Shown here: one piece after another, positions 11,481 through 15,306 of the stretch
Numbering within the stretch: position 1 is the first letter of the stretch
Layout: each line of letters starts with the position of its first letter
Assembly (NCBI RefSeq): GCF_000013005.1
Contig: NC_007722.1
Span: forward strand, 1,679,501-1,743,500
Source: Erythrobacter litoralis HTCC2594
GTDB taxonomy: Bacteria > Pseudomonadota > Alphaproteobacteria > Sphingomonadales > Sphingomonadaceae
Reading direction: 5' to 3'
DNA: 64,000 bases
Translations under genes and position numbers: made by a program
Notes under the pieces: model-generated
Told to the model about the DNA's origin: nothing
The model's input: only the letters and a program-made list of their open reading frames with translations
Databases searched by the model: none

Positions 11481-11852
11481 TTACTTGGGCCGCTTGGCGC
11501 CGTACTTCGAACGGCTCTGCTTGCGGTCCTTGACCCCTTGCGTATCGAGCACGCCGCGCAGGACGTGGTAACGCACGCCCGGCAAGTCGCGCACACGGCC
11601 GCCGCGGATGAGCACGACAGAGTGCTCCTGCAGGTTGTGGCCTTCGCCCGGGATGTAGGAGATGACTTCGCGCTGGTTCGTCAGGCGCACCTTGGCGACC
11701 TTGCGCAGGGCGGAGTTCGGCTTCTTCGGCGTCGTGGTATAGACGCGCGTGCAGACACCGCGCTTCTGCGGGTTCTGCTCCATCGCAGGGACCTTCGACT
11801 TGGCCTTCTGCGGAACGCGGCCCTTGCGGACCAGCTGGTTGATCGTCGGCAT
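11481..11852 (-). CDS. rpsL: 30S ribosomal protein S12
   Basis: I chose the ATG at 11852, giving the canonical 123-residue S12 that starts [12 protein letters not shown]; a 14-residue in-frame extension to 11894 is not conserved. The streptomycin-contact segment reads [13 protein letters not shown] with Lys43 intact, and the conserved [10 protein letters not shown] region is present. S12 monitors codon-anticodon pairing. It is the first gene of the str operon rpsL-rpsG-fusA-tuf. Confidence 0.97.
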
Positions 11853-12307
11853 AGAATTCTTTCTCTTCACCGTGTGGCGGTGGCCATGGTGCAAGGTGAA
11901 GAGAAGCAGGTTCGCATTTTGCCGTCACCCCGGACTTGATCCGGGGTCCAGCTAACAAGAACGCCCGCGCAGCGGACATCTTGCACAAACGCGAAACTGA
12001 AACACTCCACCCGACATCGGACACCGGGTTACTTTGACGCTAGCCCCAAGCTTTCCGGAAGGCTCCCCTTCCGGGAAGCGCAGCCCCTGCGAAGGCAGGG
12101 GCCCATCCATGAATGCCCAATAGAAAAGAGCCTCGGTGCACGCAGCACCAGGCCCCGGGACTGAAACGCCAATGTTCAGCTCTATTGCCCGAGGAGACTC
12201 GCAAGAGGGCCTCGGTTGAGCGCGCCATTAGCGGGGAGTGGGGGGTGGGTCAAGGGAGGGTTGACGTTTCGGCCGAAGGAATCAAAAAGCAGCGAGAGGG
12301 GGTCGCT
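11853..12307. other. intergenic region between rpsL and the ParB-like gene, with palindromes
   Basis: These 455 nt separate two divergent transcription units. They hold two repeat palindromes, ACCCCGGA-CTTGA-TCCGGGGT at 11927-11947 and GCCCCTGC-GAAG-GCAGGGGC at 12083-12102, and some short GGAA/TTCC-rich hairpins near 12050-12078. Both promoters must lie here, but I cannot place a convincing -35/-10 pair for either. From about 12120 onward the sequence has no coding feature I recognise until the ATG at 12308, which is preceded by a GAGAGGGGG ribosome binding site. Confidence 0.7.
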
Positions 12308-13594
12308 ATGCCGAGTGAAGTATTTCAAATTCCTGTAAATCGTATTCACCTGTACGAGGCGAATCCTCGTCATGGCGAAATCACCGATCCGGAAGAGATC
12401 ATCGAATATCTACTCGAGGATGAACAGGTATACGAGCTAGCAAAAAGTATAGCTCAGCACAAAACGAACCCTCTCGAATTGCTCGGCGTGGTGGAAATTA
12501 CCGAAGAGGGCAGTTCGGAGCCGGCTTATGAGGTCTGGGAAGGCAATCGCCGTGTCTGCGCCGTAATGTTGCTTAACGATCCCGACCTCGCCCCGCCAAA
12601 ATGGCGCAAACGCTTTCGCAGACTTTCCGATGAAGTCGATCCAATCGATAACATCGAAGGTCGCTCGTTTGACGATCACGAAGAGCTACGATTTTGGATG
12701 CGCAACATTCACAACGGCATGCAGGATGGACGTGGGCGGAAGGATTGGGGGCCGGACGAGCAGCACAGAGACAATCCCACGCGAAAGAACGCCATTGCGT
12801 TCGAACTTTTGGAGATGGCCGAAACTCAAGGCCTAATCTCCCGTAGCGAGCGCAAAGGCAAACTGACGACGCTCCAGCGTTTCGTCGAGAAACCAACGAT
12901 GCGAGAAGTTCTTGGCGTTGATGATTCCGACCCGGAGAACGTCACCTTTCGCAGAAGCGACGCCGATATGGCAGCGCTTCTACAGGTGATCGTAGACGAT
13001 CTGTTATCTGGCGAGATAAATTCCCGCTCCAACGACTCAGACATTGCGAAATACGCGGCAACGATTGAGGAGGAGGCCGACGTTGGGCCTTTAGCTGAAG
13101 AGGACGACGCCACGAATCCCGAGCCAACTCCGAGCCCCCCGCCCAGCCCGAGCCCGCCACCTCCGCGCCCGCGCACTTCCAACAAAATAAAGCGCTCAAA
13201 CGATCTCGTTCGTGTCCTCGACAAACTCGATGCACAGAAACTGATCGGTCTTTACTCATCGCTTACGAAGGTCAGCGCTAACACGAATACTCAGATCATT
13301 GCCGTAGGCGCTTGGGCCTTCATCGAAAGCAGCGCGAAACTTTGCGGGGCGAACAAAGACACCTCCTTTCCGTCATTTTTTACGAGGGGCAAGAATGGTA
13401 GAATGGCGACCTACGGCATCGATCACAACGAGGCAGGCGTCATCCACGAAGCGCTGACCCGTTTGTCGTCAGGCGGCAATACCACCAAGCACCATGCAAA
13501 AAGTGGTTCATTCGACCATCGCCAGATTATCAGTGATATGGAGGTTATCACTCCGATGCTAGTGCTAGCCCTTCAAGCTCAGTTGGAGGATTGA
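12308..13594 (+). CDS. ParB/sulfiredoxin-like domain protein, partner of the adenine methyltransferase
   Basis: I chose the ATG at 12308, preceded by GAGAGGGGG, giving 428 residues. Residues 1-110 look like a ParB/sulfiredoxin-type N-terminal domain: a VNRIHLYEANPRH segment (10-22), a helix with LAKSIAQHKTNPLELL (45-59), and YEVWEGNRRVCAVMLL (74-89), whose EGNRR resembles the GxRR nucleotide-binding motif of the fold. A middle helical region follows, then a Pro/Ser-rich linker (272-288) and a C-terminal domain (about 295-428) with His-rich KHHAKSGSFDHRQ that I do not recognise. The stop lies 5 nt before the methyltransferase ATG, so the genes are co-transcribed. Base composition is lower in G+C than the neighbours. 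It may be a DNA-binding or nuclease partner of the methyltransferase; function is inferred. Confidence 0.7.
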   Translation: MPSEVFQIPVNRIHLYEANPRHGEITDPEEIIEYLLEDEQVYELAKSIAQHKTNPLELLGVVEITEEGSSEPAYEVWEGNRRVCAVMLLNDPDLAPPKWRKRFRRLSDEVDPIDNIEGRSFDDHEELRFWMRNIHNGMQDGRGRKDWGPDEQHRDNPTRKNAIAFELLEMAETQGLISRSERKGKLTTLQRFVEKPTMREVLGVDDSDPENVTFRRSDADMAALLQVIVDDLLSGEINSRSNDSDIAKYAATIEEEADVGPLAEEDDATNPEPTPSPPPSPSPPPPRPRTSNKIKRSNDLVRVLDKLDAQKLIGLYSSLTKVSANTNTQIIAVGAWAFIESSAKLCGANKDTSFPSFFTRGKNGRMATYGIDHNEAGVIHEALTRLSSGGNTTKHHAKSGSFDHRQIISDMEVITPMLVLALQAQLED

Positions 13595-13599
13595 GGCGT

Positions 13600-14484
13600 A
13601 TGGCTCGTTCTCAATCCCCGCTGCGCTACCCCGGCGGAAAGTCGGCGCTTGCTGAAGTTACAGCATCTTTAATTCGGGAGAACGGTATTGGCCGCGCGCA
13701 CTACGTCGAGCCATATGCTGGCGGCGCAAGCCTCGCGTTGCATTTGCTGTATACCCGGCAAGTCTCGGATATTCACCTGAATGACCTGGACCCTGGCATT
13801 TGGAGCTTCTGGCACAGCGTGATCAACCACGCTGAAGAGCTAATCCGACTTATCGATCGCTGCGAGATAACCGTCGACGAGTGGCATCATCAAAAGTCGA
13901 TCTACCGGGAGGCTGACACGTCAGCACCTCTCAAATTGGGGTTCGCGACGTTCTTCTTGAACCGCACAAATCGGTCGGGGATCATAGGGTCAGGTGGAAT
14001 CATTGGGGGCCTCCAACAACAAGGAAATTATAAGATTGATTGCAGATTTAATAAATATAACTTGGTCCAAAAAATCCGAAAGATCAACAGATATAGAAAT
14101 TCCATCCATCTAACTAATCTTGATGCAGTCGAATTTCTACAAAGCAGCGATGTAACCTTGTCAGAGCGCACGCTTTATATGATTGACCCACCATATTATG
14201 AGAAAGGATCGTCACTTTATACGAACTTTTACGGAAAGGATGATCACTCTGCCGTTAGAGATGCTATCGCCCATCTATCCAAACCATGGATCGTGACATA
14301 CGATAATTGCGATGAAATATCAGACCTTTATCGTGACTTTGACCAGATCGAATTCGGGATCAGCTATTCCGCAAATAAGAAACGGACGGGCAAGGAGCTT
14401 ATGATCGTTTCCCCGCACTTGCGCTTCGCAGAACGAACAGTCGAGCTGATCAGAAAAAGATTGCCAACACCAATTGCTGCCTAA
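13600..14484 (+). CDS. D12-class (Dam-like) DNA N6-adenine methyltransferase
   Basis: The 294-residue protein has the D12/Dam layout: RYPGGKSALA (9-18), motif I VEPYAGGASLALHLL (36-50), NRTNRSGI (121-128) and the catalytic motif IV DPPYY (196-200). It should transfer methyl from SAM to N6 of adenine in a short DNA site; the recognition sequence cannot be read from this. The ATG at 13600 is preferred over an in-frame TTG at 13591 that overlaps the previous stop. The 14.0-14.2 kb part is strikingly AT-rich for this genome, which suggests transfer. No restriction endonuclease ORF follows, so it is either an orphan methylase or works with the ParB-like partner. Confidence 0.88.
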   Translation: MARSQSPLRYPGGKSALAEVTASLIRENGIGRAHYVEPYAGGASLALHLLYTRQVSDIHLNDLDPGIWSFWHSVINHAEELIRLIDRCEITVDEWHHQKSIYREADTSAPLKLGFATFFLNRTNRSGIIGSGGIIGGLQQQGNYKIDCRFNKYNLVQKIRKINRYRNSIHLTNLDAVEFLQSSDVTLSERTLYMIDPPYYEKGSSLYTNFYGKDDHSAVRDAIAHLSKPWIVTYDNCDEISDLYRDFDQIEFGISYSANKKRTGKELMIVSPHLRFAERTVELIRKRLPTPIAA

Positions 14485-14538
14485 TCAACACAATATCGTT
14501 TTCCTACACGCCTGAAATTTGCAATCTGCCTGCGGGCT

Positions 14539-15306
14539 ATGCTCGACCCACCATCCCTTCCTACCCGCAAGATCGCCCGCCAGGCCACCTCCGCCGTCGC
14601 GCATATCGCTCCCCCACCTGCGCCGGACGACCCGCTGCTCGCGTTCGAGCCGGTGCCGCATGTCGCGCCGCGGTCCAACTCCATCACGCCCGATCTCCAG
14701 CGCGCGTTTATCGCCACGCTCGCGGCCACCGGGATCGTCACGCAGGCGGCGAAGTCGATCGGCAAGTCGATGGAGGCGCTCTACAAGTTGCGGCAGCGGC
14801 CCGGGGCGGAGGGCTTTCGCGCGGCGTGGGAGGCGGCGCTCGAGCGGGGCGTGCAGCGGCTGGAGGATTGCGCACTCGAACGCGCGCTGCAGGGCACGCC
14901 GACGCCGATCGTCTCGGGCGGCGAAATCCTCGGCTATTGGGACAAGCCGGACAATGTTATGCTGCGCTTCCTGCTGCAGCACCGGCTCTCCGGGAAATAC
15001 GGCGTCCAGCAGCTTGGCCCCGGCCACCCGGTCTATGACAGCATCCGCGCCGAGGTGCTGGAGGAGATCGCCGCCGCCGAGCGCGAGGCGGCAGCGCTCG
15101 AGAAGCGAATCGAGCGCCGCGTCGAAGCCGCCCGGGCCGAAACGCGCGAGGCGACGTTGCGCGAGTGCGAAGCGGCCGCAACAGGCGACGACGGGGACGA
15201 GACCGAAGCGGAGCGAACGAGGTGGCGCGAAACCTATCGCGGGCACTATCCCGATCTCGACGATGAGATCATCGAGGAAATGGTGGAGCGGATGGTGAGC
15301 GATTGA
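14539..15306 (+). CDS. hypothetical protein with terminase-small-subunit-like helical N-terminus
   Basis: This 255-residue protein begins MLDPPSLPTRKIARQATS. After a Pro-rich start, residues about 49-100 (ITPDLQRAFIATLAATGIVT, then AAKSIGKSMEALYKLRQRPG) look like a helix-turn-helix of the kind seen in phage terminase small subunits. A long charged coiled-coil-like region follows (EEIAAAEREAAALEKRIERR) and the C-terminus is acidic. Composition is high in G+C like the core genome, unlike the cassette just upstream. I do not recognise a defined family; DNA binding is inference. Confidence 0.6.
   Translation: MLDPPSLPTRKIARQATSAVAHIAPPPAPDDPLLAFEPVPHVAPRSNSITPDLQRAFIATLAATGIVTQAAKSIGKSMEALYKLRQRPGAEGFRAAWEAALERGVQRLEDCALERALQGTPTPIVSGGEILGYWDKPDNVMLRFLLQHRLSGKYGVQQLGPGHPVYDSIRAEVLEEIAAAEREAAALEKRIERRVEAARAETREATLRECEAAATGDDGDETEAERTRWRETYRGHYPDLDDEIIEEMVERMVSD

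Follow-up and report, generated by a model that had tools for sequence, protein, structure and literature searches.

A PD-lambda-5-type gene pair beside the str operon of Erythrobacter litoralis and a putative control site of its methyltransferase

The gene pair and its relation to PD-lambda-5

The closest described relative of the locus examined here is PD-lambda-5, which confers broad protection against phages in E. coli and has been described as a compacted restriction-modification plus abortive-infection (RM+Abi) system (Vassallo et al. 2022, PMC9519451). We found no mechanism for it in the accessible parts of that article. The host used for those tests carried a deletion of a region containing mrr, which is consistent with an active modification enzyme. 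We analyzed a homologous two-gene cassette, genes A and B, in a 64,000-nucleotide stretch of Erythrobacter litoralis HTCC2594 DNA (contig NC_007722.1, positions 1,679,501 to 1,743,500 of the forward strand), hereafter the window. We favor, at a probability of roughly 0.6, the reading that the cassette is a PD-Lambda-5 anti-phage module in which B would mark a site in host DNA, A would sense unmarked DNA, and a HEPN-like domain of A would stop the infection.

The two genes lie on the plus strand at 12308-13594 (A, 428 residues) and 13600-14484 (B, 294 residues), separated by 5 nt, which bears out the initial annotation, made from the sequence alone, of a 428-residue protein with an EGNRR word followed 5 nt later by a D12 methyltransferase with a DPPYY motif. 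Protein A matches the PADLOC profile PDLC04000 (PD-Lambda-5_A) with E 1.6e-135, residues 1-423 aligning with profile positions 1-422 of 428, and B matches PDLC04018 (PD-Lambda-5_B) with E 9.9e-122, residues 1-280 aligning with positions 1-279 of 291; both scores are far beyond chance. All 47 of the diverse A proteins scanned likewise match PD-Lambda-5_A models. B additionally matches PF02086 (E 3.9e-15, 56.7 bits against a cut-off of 22), and its intact DPPY motif (residues 196-199), expected of a D12-class enzyme, is invariant across 43 homologues. By homology, then, the pair is a member of the published PD-Lambda-5 system and not a new system. The earlier idea of a small defense module in which a ParB-like protein stands in the place of a restriction enzyme was right in substance, except that this module was already known as PD-lambda-5.

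Like PD-lambda-5, the cassette consists of two adjacent genes on the same strand, and both products match the corresponding models nearly over their full length. The E. coli system came from a prophage, whereas the window copy is chromosomal and sits at the str operon; the only prophage-type gene seen beside it is a small-terminase-like open reading frame (ORF), and there is no space ahead of its B gene for a separate promoter. The features are as follows.

11481..11894, minus strand: left-flank gene rpsL (S12) on the edge of the str operon (called as an ORF, and homologous to the cassette-free relatives as well as to the Erythrobacter vulgaris locus L029)
12255..12307, plus strand: cassette leader of 53 bp, containing TTGACG as well as a CGGCCG at 12270
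12308..13594, plus strand: gene A, PD-Lambda-5_A homologue of 428 residues (PADLOC PDLC04000; no Pfam family)
12317..12730, plus strand: A residues 4-141, predicted ParB CTPase-type N domain containing EGNRR (structural comparison)
12743..13087, plus strand: A residues 146-260, helical part that aligns loosely with KorB/ParB N-terminal constructs over their second half
13220..13591, plus strand: A residues 305-428, likely effector domain, helical and HEPN-like
13600..14484, plus strand: gene B, PD-Lambda-5_B homologue, D12-class DNA methyltransferase of 294 residues (PADLOC PDLC04018, PF02086)
14185..14199, plus strand: B catalytic motif DPPYY, residues 196-200
14492..15306, plus strand: right flank with the small-terminase-like ORF (14539-15306), homologous to the cassette-free relative G002 from 14492 on

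The direct neighbors of the pair are rpsL on one side, as expected from the earlier placement at the edge of the str operon, and the small-terminase-like ORF followed by a GNAT acetyltransferase gene on the other. No restriction-enzyme ORF of the kind that defines a classical type II restriction-modification (RM) system adjoins the pair in Pfam, NCBIfam or PADLOC searches, in agreement with the initial annotation, and none of the direct neighbors (rpsL, B, the small-terminase-like ORF and the GNAT gene) is a ParA partner of the kind that defines ParABS partition. The reported drop in G+C also holds: values within the cassette are 0.41-0.57, compared with 0.60-0.64 upstream and 0.68-0.70 just downstream, and the minimum in 500-nt steps, 0.412 at 14000-14499, covers the AT-rich part noticed at about 14.0-14.2 kb.

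Predicted architecture of protein A and a possible mechanism

The solved structures nearest to a structural model of A are ParB CTPases and HEPN proteins. As modelled, A would combine an N-terminal ParB CTPase-type domain with a C-terminal HEPN-like domain, an assignment that is new here. The ParB fold emerged from structure comparison; Foldseek alone returned just two chains (ParB and Noc) at E < 0.001, and searches of A against the sequences of solved structures, by single sequence and by profiles, gave no convincing match. Pfam hints among relatives of A are weak, with ParB_N in 6 of 47 proteins, DUF4145 in two and GmrSD_N in one. The EGNRR word occupies residues 78-82 (window 12539-12553), and the invariant residues of A fall at 19-147, within or beside the ParB-like part. 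A ParB-like N terminus had been expected from the EGNRR word, and the modelled domain at residues 4-141 agrees with it. The accompanying suggestion, that this part replaces or guides a nuclease, needs to be recast, because the ParB-like part is probably a sensor and the likely effector is a separate HEPN-like domain in the C-terminal region, which the initial annotation missed.

Two groups of proteins offer comparisons for these predicted parts. ParB, Noc and KorB are cytidine triphosphate (CTP)-dependent DNA clamps, whereas the window A lacks a ParA neighbor, carries a HEPN-like C terminus and has a methyltransferase as its partner. HEPN toxins and abortive-infection proteins (MNT-HEPN, AbiA, AbiV) may share the fold modelled for A residues 305-428; they differ in that the A clade has no clear R-x4-6-H motif and is fused to a ParB-like part. 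In the window A this HEPN ribonuclease motif is absent, with serine at position 388, where 48 of 94 relatives have arginine; R385 and H395 are separated by nine residues. A literature search on ParB-like, CTPase or HEPN proteins in defense returned two papers, which we judged from their listing to be off the point.

In the favored module, B would place its mark on a short motif in the DNA of its own host, TGGCC(A/G) being the likeliest, and A would act as a DNA-binding, CTP-regulated sensor of the ParB type for DNA without that mark, such as incoming phage DNA. Sensing would then switch on the C-terminal HEPN-like domain, and the infection would be stopped, probably by RNA cutting.

An ordinary RM arrangement, with A as the enzyme that cuts unmodified DNA at the site of B and with no RNA-directed or abortive step, would account for the closeness of a D12 methyltransferase to A in 75 of 85 loci and for the RM part of the description given to PD-lambda-5. 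ParB/Srx-fold proteins can be nucleases. However, searches of Pfam, NCBIfam and PADLOC, which could have missed a match, place the window A in no nuclease family; its hits are limited to PD-Lambda-5_A and a single weak NCBIfam row that looks like chance. Structurally, it comes closest to ParB CTPases and HEPN proteins. We consider such direct cutting unlikely.

Partners of B and the TGGCC(A/G) site

Adjacency of the two genes, which the initial annotation had proposed to check, was surveyed in 85 A-centered loci, a partly redundant set: B lies downstream of A in 75. The gap was measured in 74 of these (all but L048); 69 have fewer than 90 nt between the genes (40-90 nt in 51), and the other five have 350-2601 nt. 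Among the ten loci without a downstream B, five are on contigs that break off inside A or no more than 2 nt from it, three are weak relatives on short loci (L003-L005, with 765 and 1086 nt of downstream sequence for two of the three), and two (L062 and L103) extend more than 4 kb past A without a B gene.

Searches centered on B revealed a second type of partner. Among 39 viral loci scoring above 270 bits, taken from the best 80 of 600 rows, so that shares should not be read as frequencies, A is present in 24 (18 upstream on the same strand, five convergent, one downstream) and absent from 15. In 14 of these 15, the preceding gene is an ATPase-like ORF of 469-609 residues; the fifteenth contig begins at B. 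A P-loop word was found by pattern in 12 of the 14 ORFs, in variant form in L110, and in an adjoining short ORF in L114, and all six of the 14 that were scanned are AAA_15/AAA_21 ATPases. Against PADLOC 2.0.0 these six gave only partial, generic matches to many ATPase models (best E 3.5e-23). The B protein of L110, which has an ATPase partner, is 82% identical to that of L094, which has a PD-Lambda-5 partner; thus, close relatives of one B enzyme pair with two unrelated partners. This swap separates features linked to the methyltransferase from those linked to the effector, and the ATPase and B pair is a candidate sister defense system. Our literature search on defense by an ATPase plus an adenine methylase found no paper.

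An ATPase-like gene directly precedes a PD-Lambda-5_B-type gene in L108 (2307-4810), L110, L114, L115, L118, L119, L121, L124, L125, L131, L138, L141 and L143, and in E. coli L197 (1853-4565). Convergent, tail-to-tail B and A genes, which form no operon, occur in L117, L122, L127, L134, L137 and L195. Three E. coli loci display three arrangements, namely A and B beside portal and terminase genes, B convergent with a "ParB/Srx family N-terminal domain-containing protein", and an ATPase gene with B; both A proteins of these loci were confirmed by profile.

We then compared the 100 nt before B in 103 non-redundant loci whose upstream sequence was long enough, one of the original 104 having been dropped. 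TGGCC(A/G), or TGGCCR, is present in 71 of the 103, compared with 8-14% of random windows from the same loci. By arrangement, it occurs in 57 of the 84 loci where A lies upstream, in 11 of the 13 that lack A, in three of the five convergent ones and not in the single remaining one. In an unbiased ranking of 6-mers, TGGCCA came first (39 against 3.6 expected), the overlapping CTGGCC second and TGGCCG third (32 against 5.1), with TAGAAT and TATAAT just below. A -10 hexamer matching at least four of six positions follows in 54 of the 71 TGGCCR loci, with a distance of 17 nt from the site in 46 of them, and one matching at least five of six at 16-18 nt occurs in 29 of the 71, as opposed to 3.2% at random anchors. 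By this spacing, TGGCCR occupies the -35 position of a B promoter in relatives. Within the A subfamily of the window, the site is found in 40 of 41 loci with a gap of at least 40 nt and in three of ten with a shorter gap; the other A subfamilies have it in just 8 of 18 and 6 of 14. Of 13 viral loci in which B follows an ATPase gene, 11 have TGGCCA before B, as does E. coli L197.

Before A the site is not enriched (3 of 47 loci, against 14% at random). TGGCCR is present at 11 of 13 A-less B genes and lacks enrichment ahead of A, which ties it to B rather than A; for this reason the notion that it serves chiefly as an operator of A was dropped. We read TGGCC(A/G) as the putative target of B, set in the -35 box of its own promoter for self-control, so that in many relatives an excess of free B would turn its own gene down. 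Some observations weigh against this reading. Neither the window copy nor the E. vulgaris copy has a TGGCCR promoter before B, and the site is missing from 13 of 16 later rows, some of which repeat earlier loci. Since the 5-nt gap in the window is too short to hold another promoter for B, A and B would be expressed there from one message, and B probably depends on the transcript of A.

Two further loci without TGGCCR, L196 and L120, have another palindrome-like stretch, CTGGACATGGATGTCCAG, before B, which may serve a B subgroup with a different target as its control site. Plasmid-borne B genes of Psychrobacter and Staphylococcus hominis (L199 and L200) also lack TGGCCR.

The literature on TGGCCA was searched only after the motif had emerged from the loci. 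Three orphan/phage type II-alpha enzymes are tied to the site in published reports (PMC10287943, PMC8340859 and PMC5005818): M.CmuRB25ORF22915P of Chania by prediction; MT2 of A. baumannii A118, whose annotation is that of an adenine methylase with no restriction partner, by expression, which added N4-methylcytosine (m4C) at TGGCCA; and S. algae E1N14_009720 by assignment, with m4C at position 4 of 4,218 of 8,820 sites. A further such link was predicted in Acetobacterium, where the measured motif differed. C. difficile CD0935 gave partial BalI protection with no mark detected. In P. luminescens TT01, N6-methyladenine (m6A) is reported at TGGCCA; the authors had no in silico assignment and tentatively proposed a hybrid enzyme. 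The marks given in these reports are thus m4C in two species and m6A in one, and the m6A in Photorhabdus argues against m4C as a general rule for TGGCCA. Weak or partial TGGCCA signals are mentioned for Listeria and Thermacetogenium.

The resemblance of these orphan/phage type II-alpha enzymes to B is one of site, in that TGGCCA equals the promoter motif before B genes. Relatives of B labelled A. baumannii and Photorhabdus occur among the best 120 listed per search, where none could be matched to MT2, E1N14_009720 or the Chania enzyme. In the Acinetobacter group, B was found in 5 of 79 genomes, at six loci that all lack TGGCCR before B. Among 5.39 million papers searched, none mentions both PD-lambda-5 and TGGCCA. 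The word "adenine" in the name of B comes from annotation, and B may form m4C rather than m6A; by the same token, the "DNA adenine methylase" names in its family (7,852 and 7,908 among the 8,000 scored matches of two protein searches) may not all mean adenine marking.

TGGCCR could instead be an operator, bound by B acting as a repressor or by a widespread host factor, rather than a methylation target. Its location exactly at the -35 position would suit an operator, and some methyltransferases, reportedly including EcoRII, repress their own promoter by binding. However, TGGCCR accompanies B with either of two unrelated partners and, judged by record titles, in several phyla, and the reports above give TGGCCA as the site of orphan/phage type II-alpha enzymes. 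We therefore regard a pure operator as improbable. Control through the system's own methylation site would resemble CfrBI, a classical RM system with a restriction enzyme and in that respect unlike the A-B pair. Own-site methylation reportedly takes part in the expression control of CfrBI (Beletskaya 2000).

A bolder elaboration of the favored module can be put forward only tentatively. It envisages a DNA-mark-reading immune switch in which A, as a ParB-type CTP clamp, loads on unmarked TGGCC(A/G) and fires a HEPN ribonuclease, while B possibly deposits m4C and throttles itself at the -35 box, and the core of B is reused with an AAA_15/AAA_21 ATPase as a sister defense system. Although the cassette is ordinary as a system, the family-level findings supply a candidate target site for B and a structural reading of A as a CTP-type sensor with a HEPN-like effector, and they make the mechanism of PD-lambda-5 directly testable.

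The chromosomal site among relatives

Homologues of A were found in 5 of the 59 genomes searched, including that of the window, and thus in four of the 58 others; four other genomes of the same genus (one 73% complete) gave no match. In three same-genus genomes, G001, G002 and G003 (loci L026-L028), we compared the slot bounded by rpsL and a LysR gene; it holds the cassette in none of them. Homology to these relatives ends on the left at 12254 (G002 and G003), 53 bp before A, or at 12234 (G001), and resumes on the right at 14492 (G002), 8 bp past B. Because DNA up to 12254 is also present in relatives without the cassette, A likely starts at 12308; a mechanical ORF starting at 12113 (493 residues) was dropped for the same reason. 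No terminal repeats were found in the two 90-bp ends of the cassette, which share no word of at least seven bases that could mark a target-site duplication.

Erythrobacter vulgaris (L029) carries A and B at the same site and in the same flanking gene order, with DNA identities of 74-90% in the flanks and 68% in the cassette. This rules out a recent insertion confined to the window genome, and because E. vulgaris shares the cassette there, we view it as old at a site whose contents change. The comparison of sister genomes proposed in the initial annotation accordingly supports a patchy distribution but not a recent arrival. In the E. vulgaris copy (from 5001), the A frame is interrupted 44 codons after the ATG, and the gene may be damaged or the record faulty.

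These copies also bear on the possibility of a modification-addiction module, in which loss of the mark made by B frees A to kill the host and phage defense is secondary. Such a module would suit the tight linkage of the genes, the control site in the promoter of B and the fact that viral contigs, E. coli prophages and a plasmid carry PD-Lambda-5 relatives. It is nevertheless rather improbable, given that the E. coli relative protects broadly against phages and that the copies of the window and of E. vulgaris occupy one and the same chromosomal site, where little would be gained from addiction. A domesticated epigenetic pair with no defense role in this host, compatible with one site kept in two species that both lack the TGGCCR promoter of B, is very doubtful because the missing A match in the four same-genus genomes fits poorly with a core role.

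The contents of the slot vary by relative. It spans about 1 kb in G001 and holds three longer minus-strand ORFs (409, 211 and 179 residues) in G003. In G002, with the same right flank as the cassette, it contains a GNAT gene, a 447-residue ORF, a small helix-turn-helix (HTH)-like ORF and a 190-residue ORF that, judged by eye, we take for a RES-type toxin; this HTH/RES module, which looks like a toxin-antitoxin pair, ends at the right border of the cassette. The small-terminase-like ORF (14539-15306) matches phrog_4044 with E 1.8e-12 and is also present at the site in G002 and E. vulgaris, and the order of this ORF and the GNAT gene in G002 is unlike that in the window.
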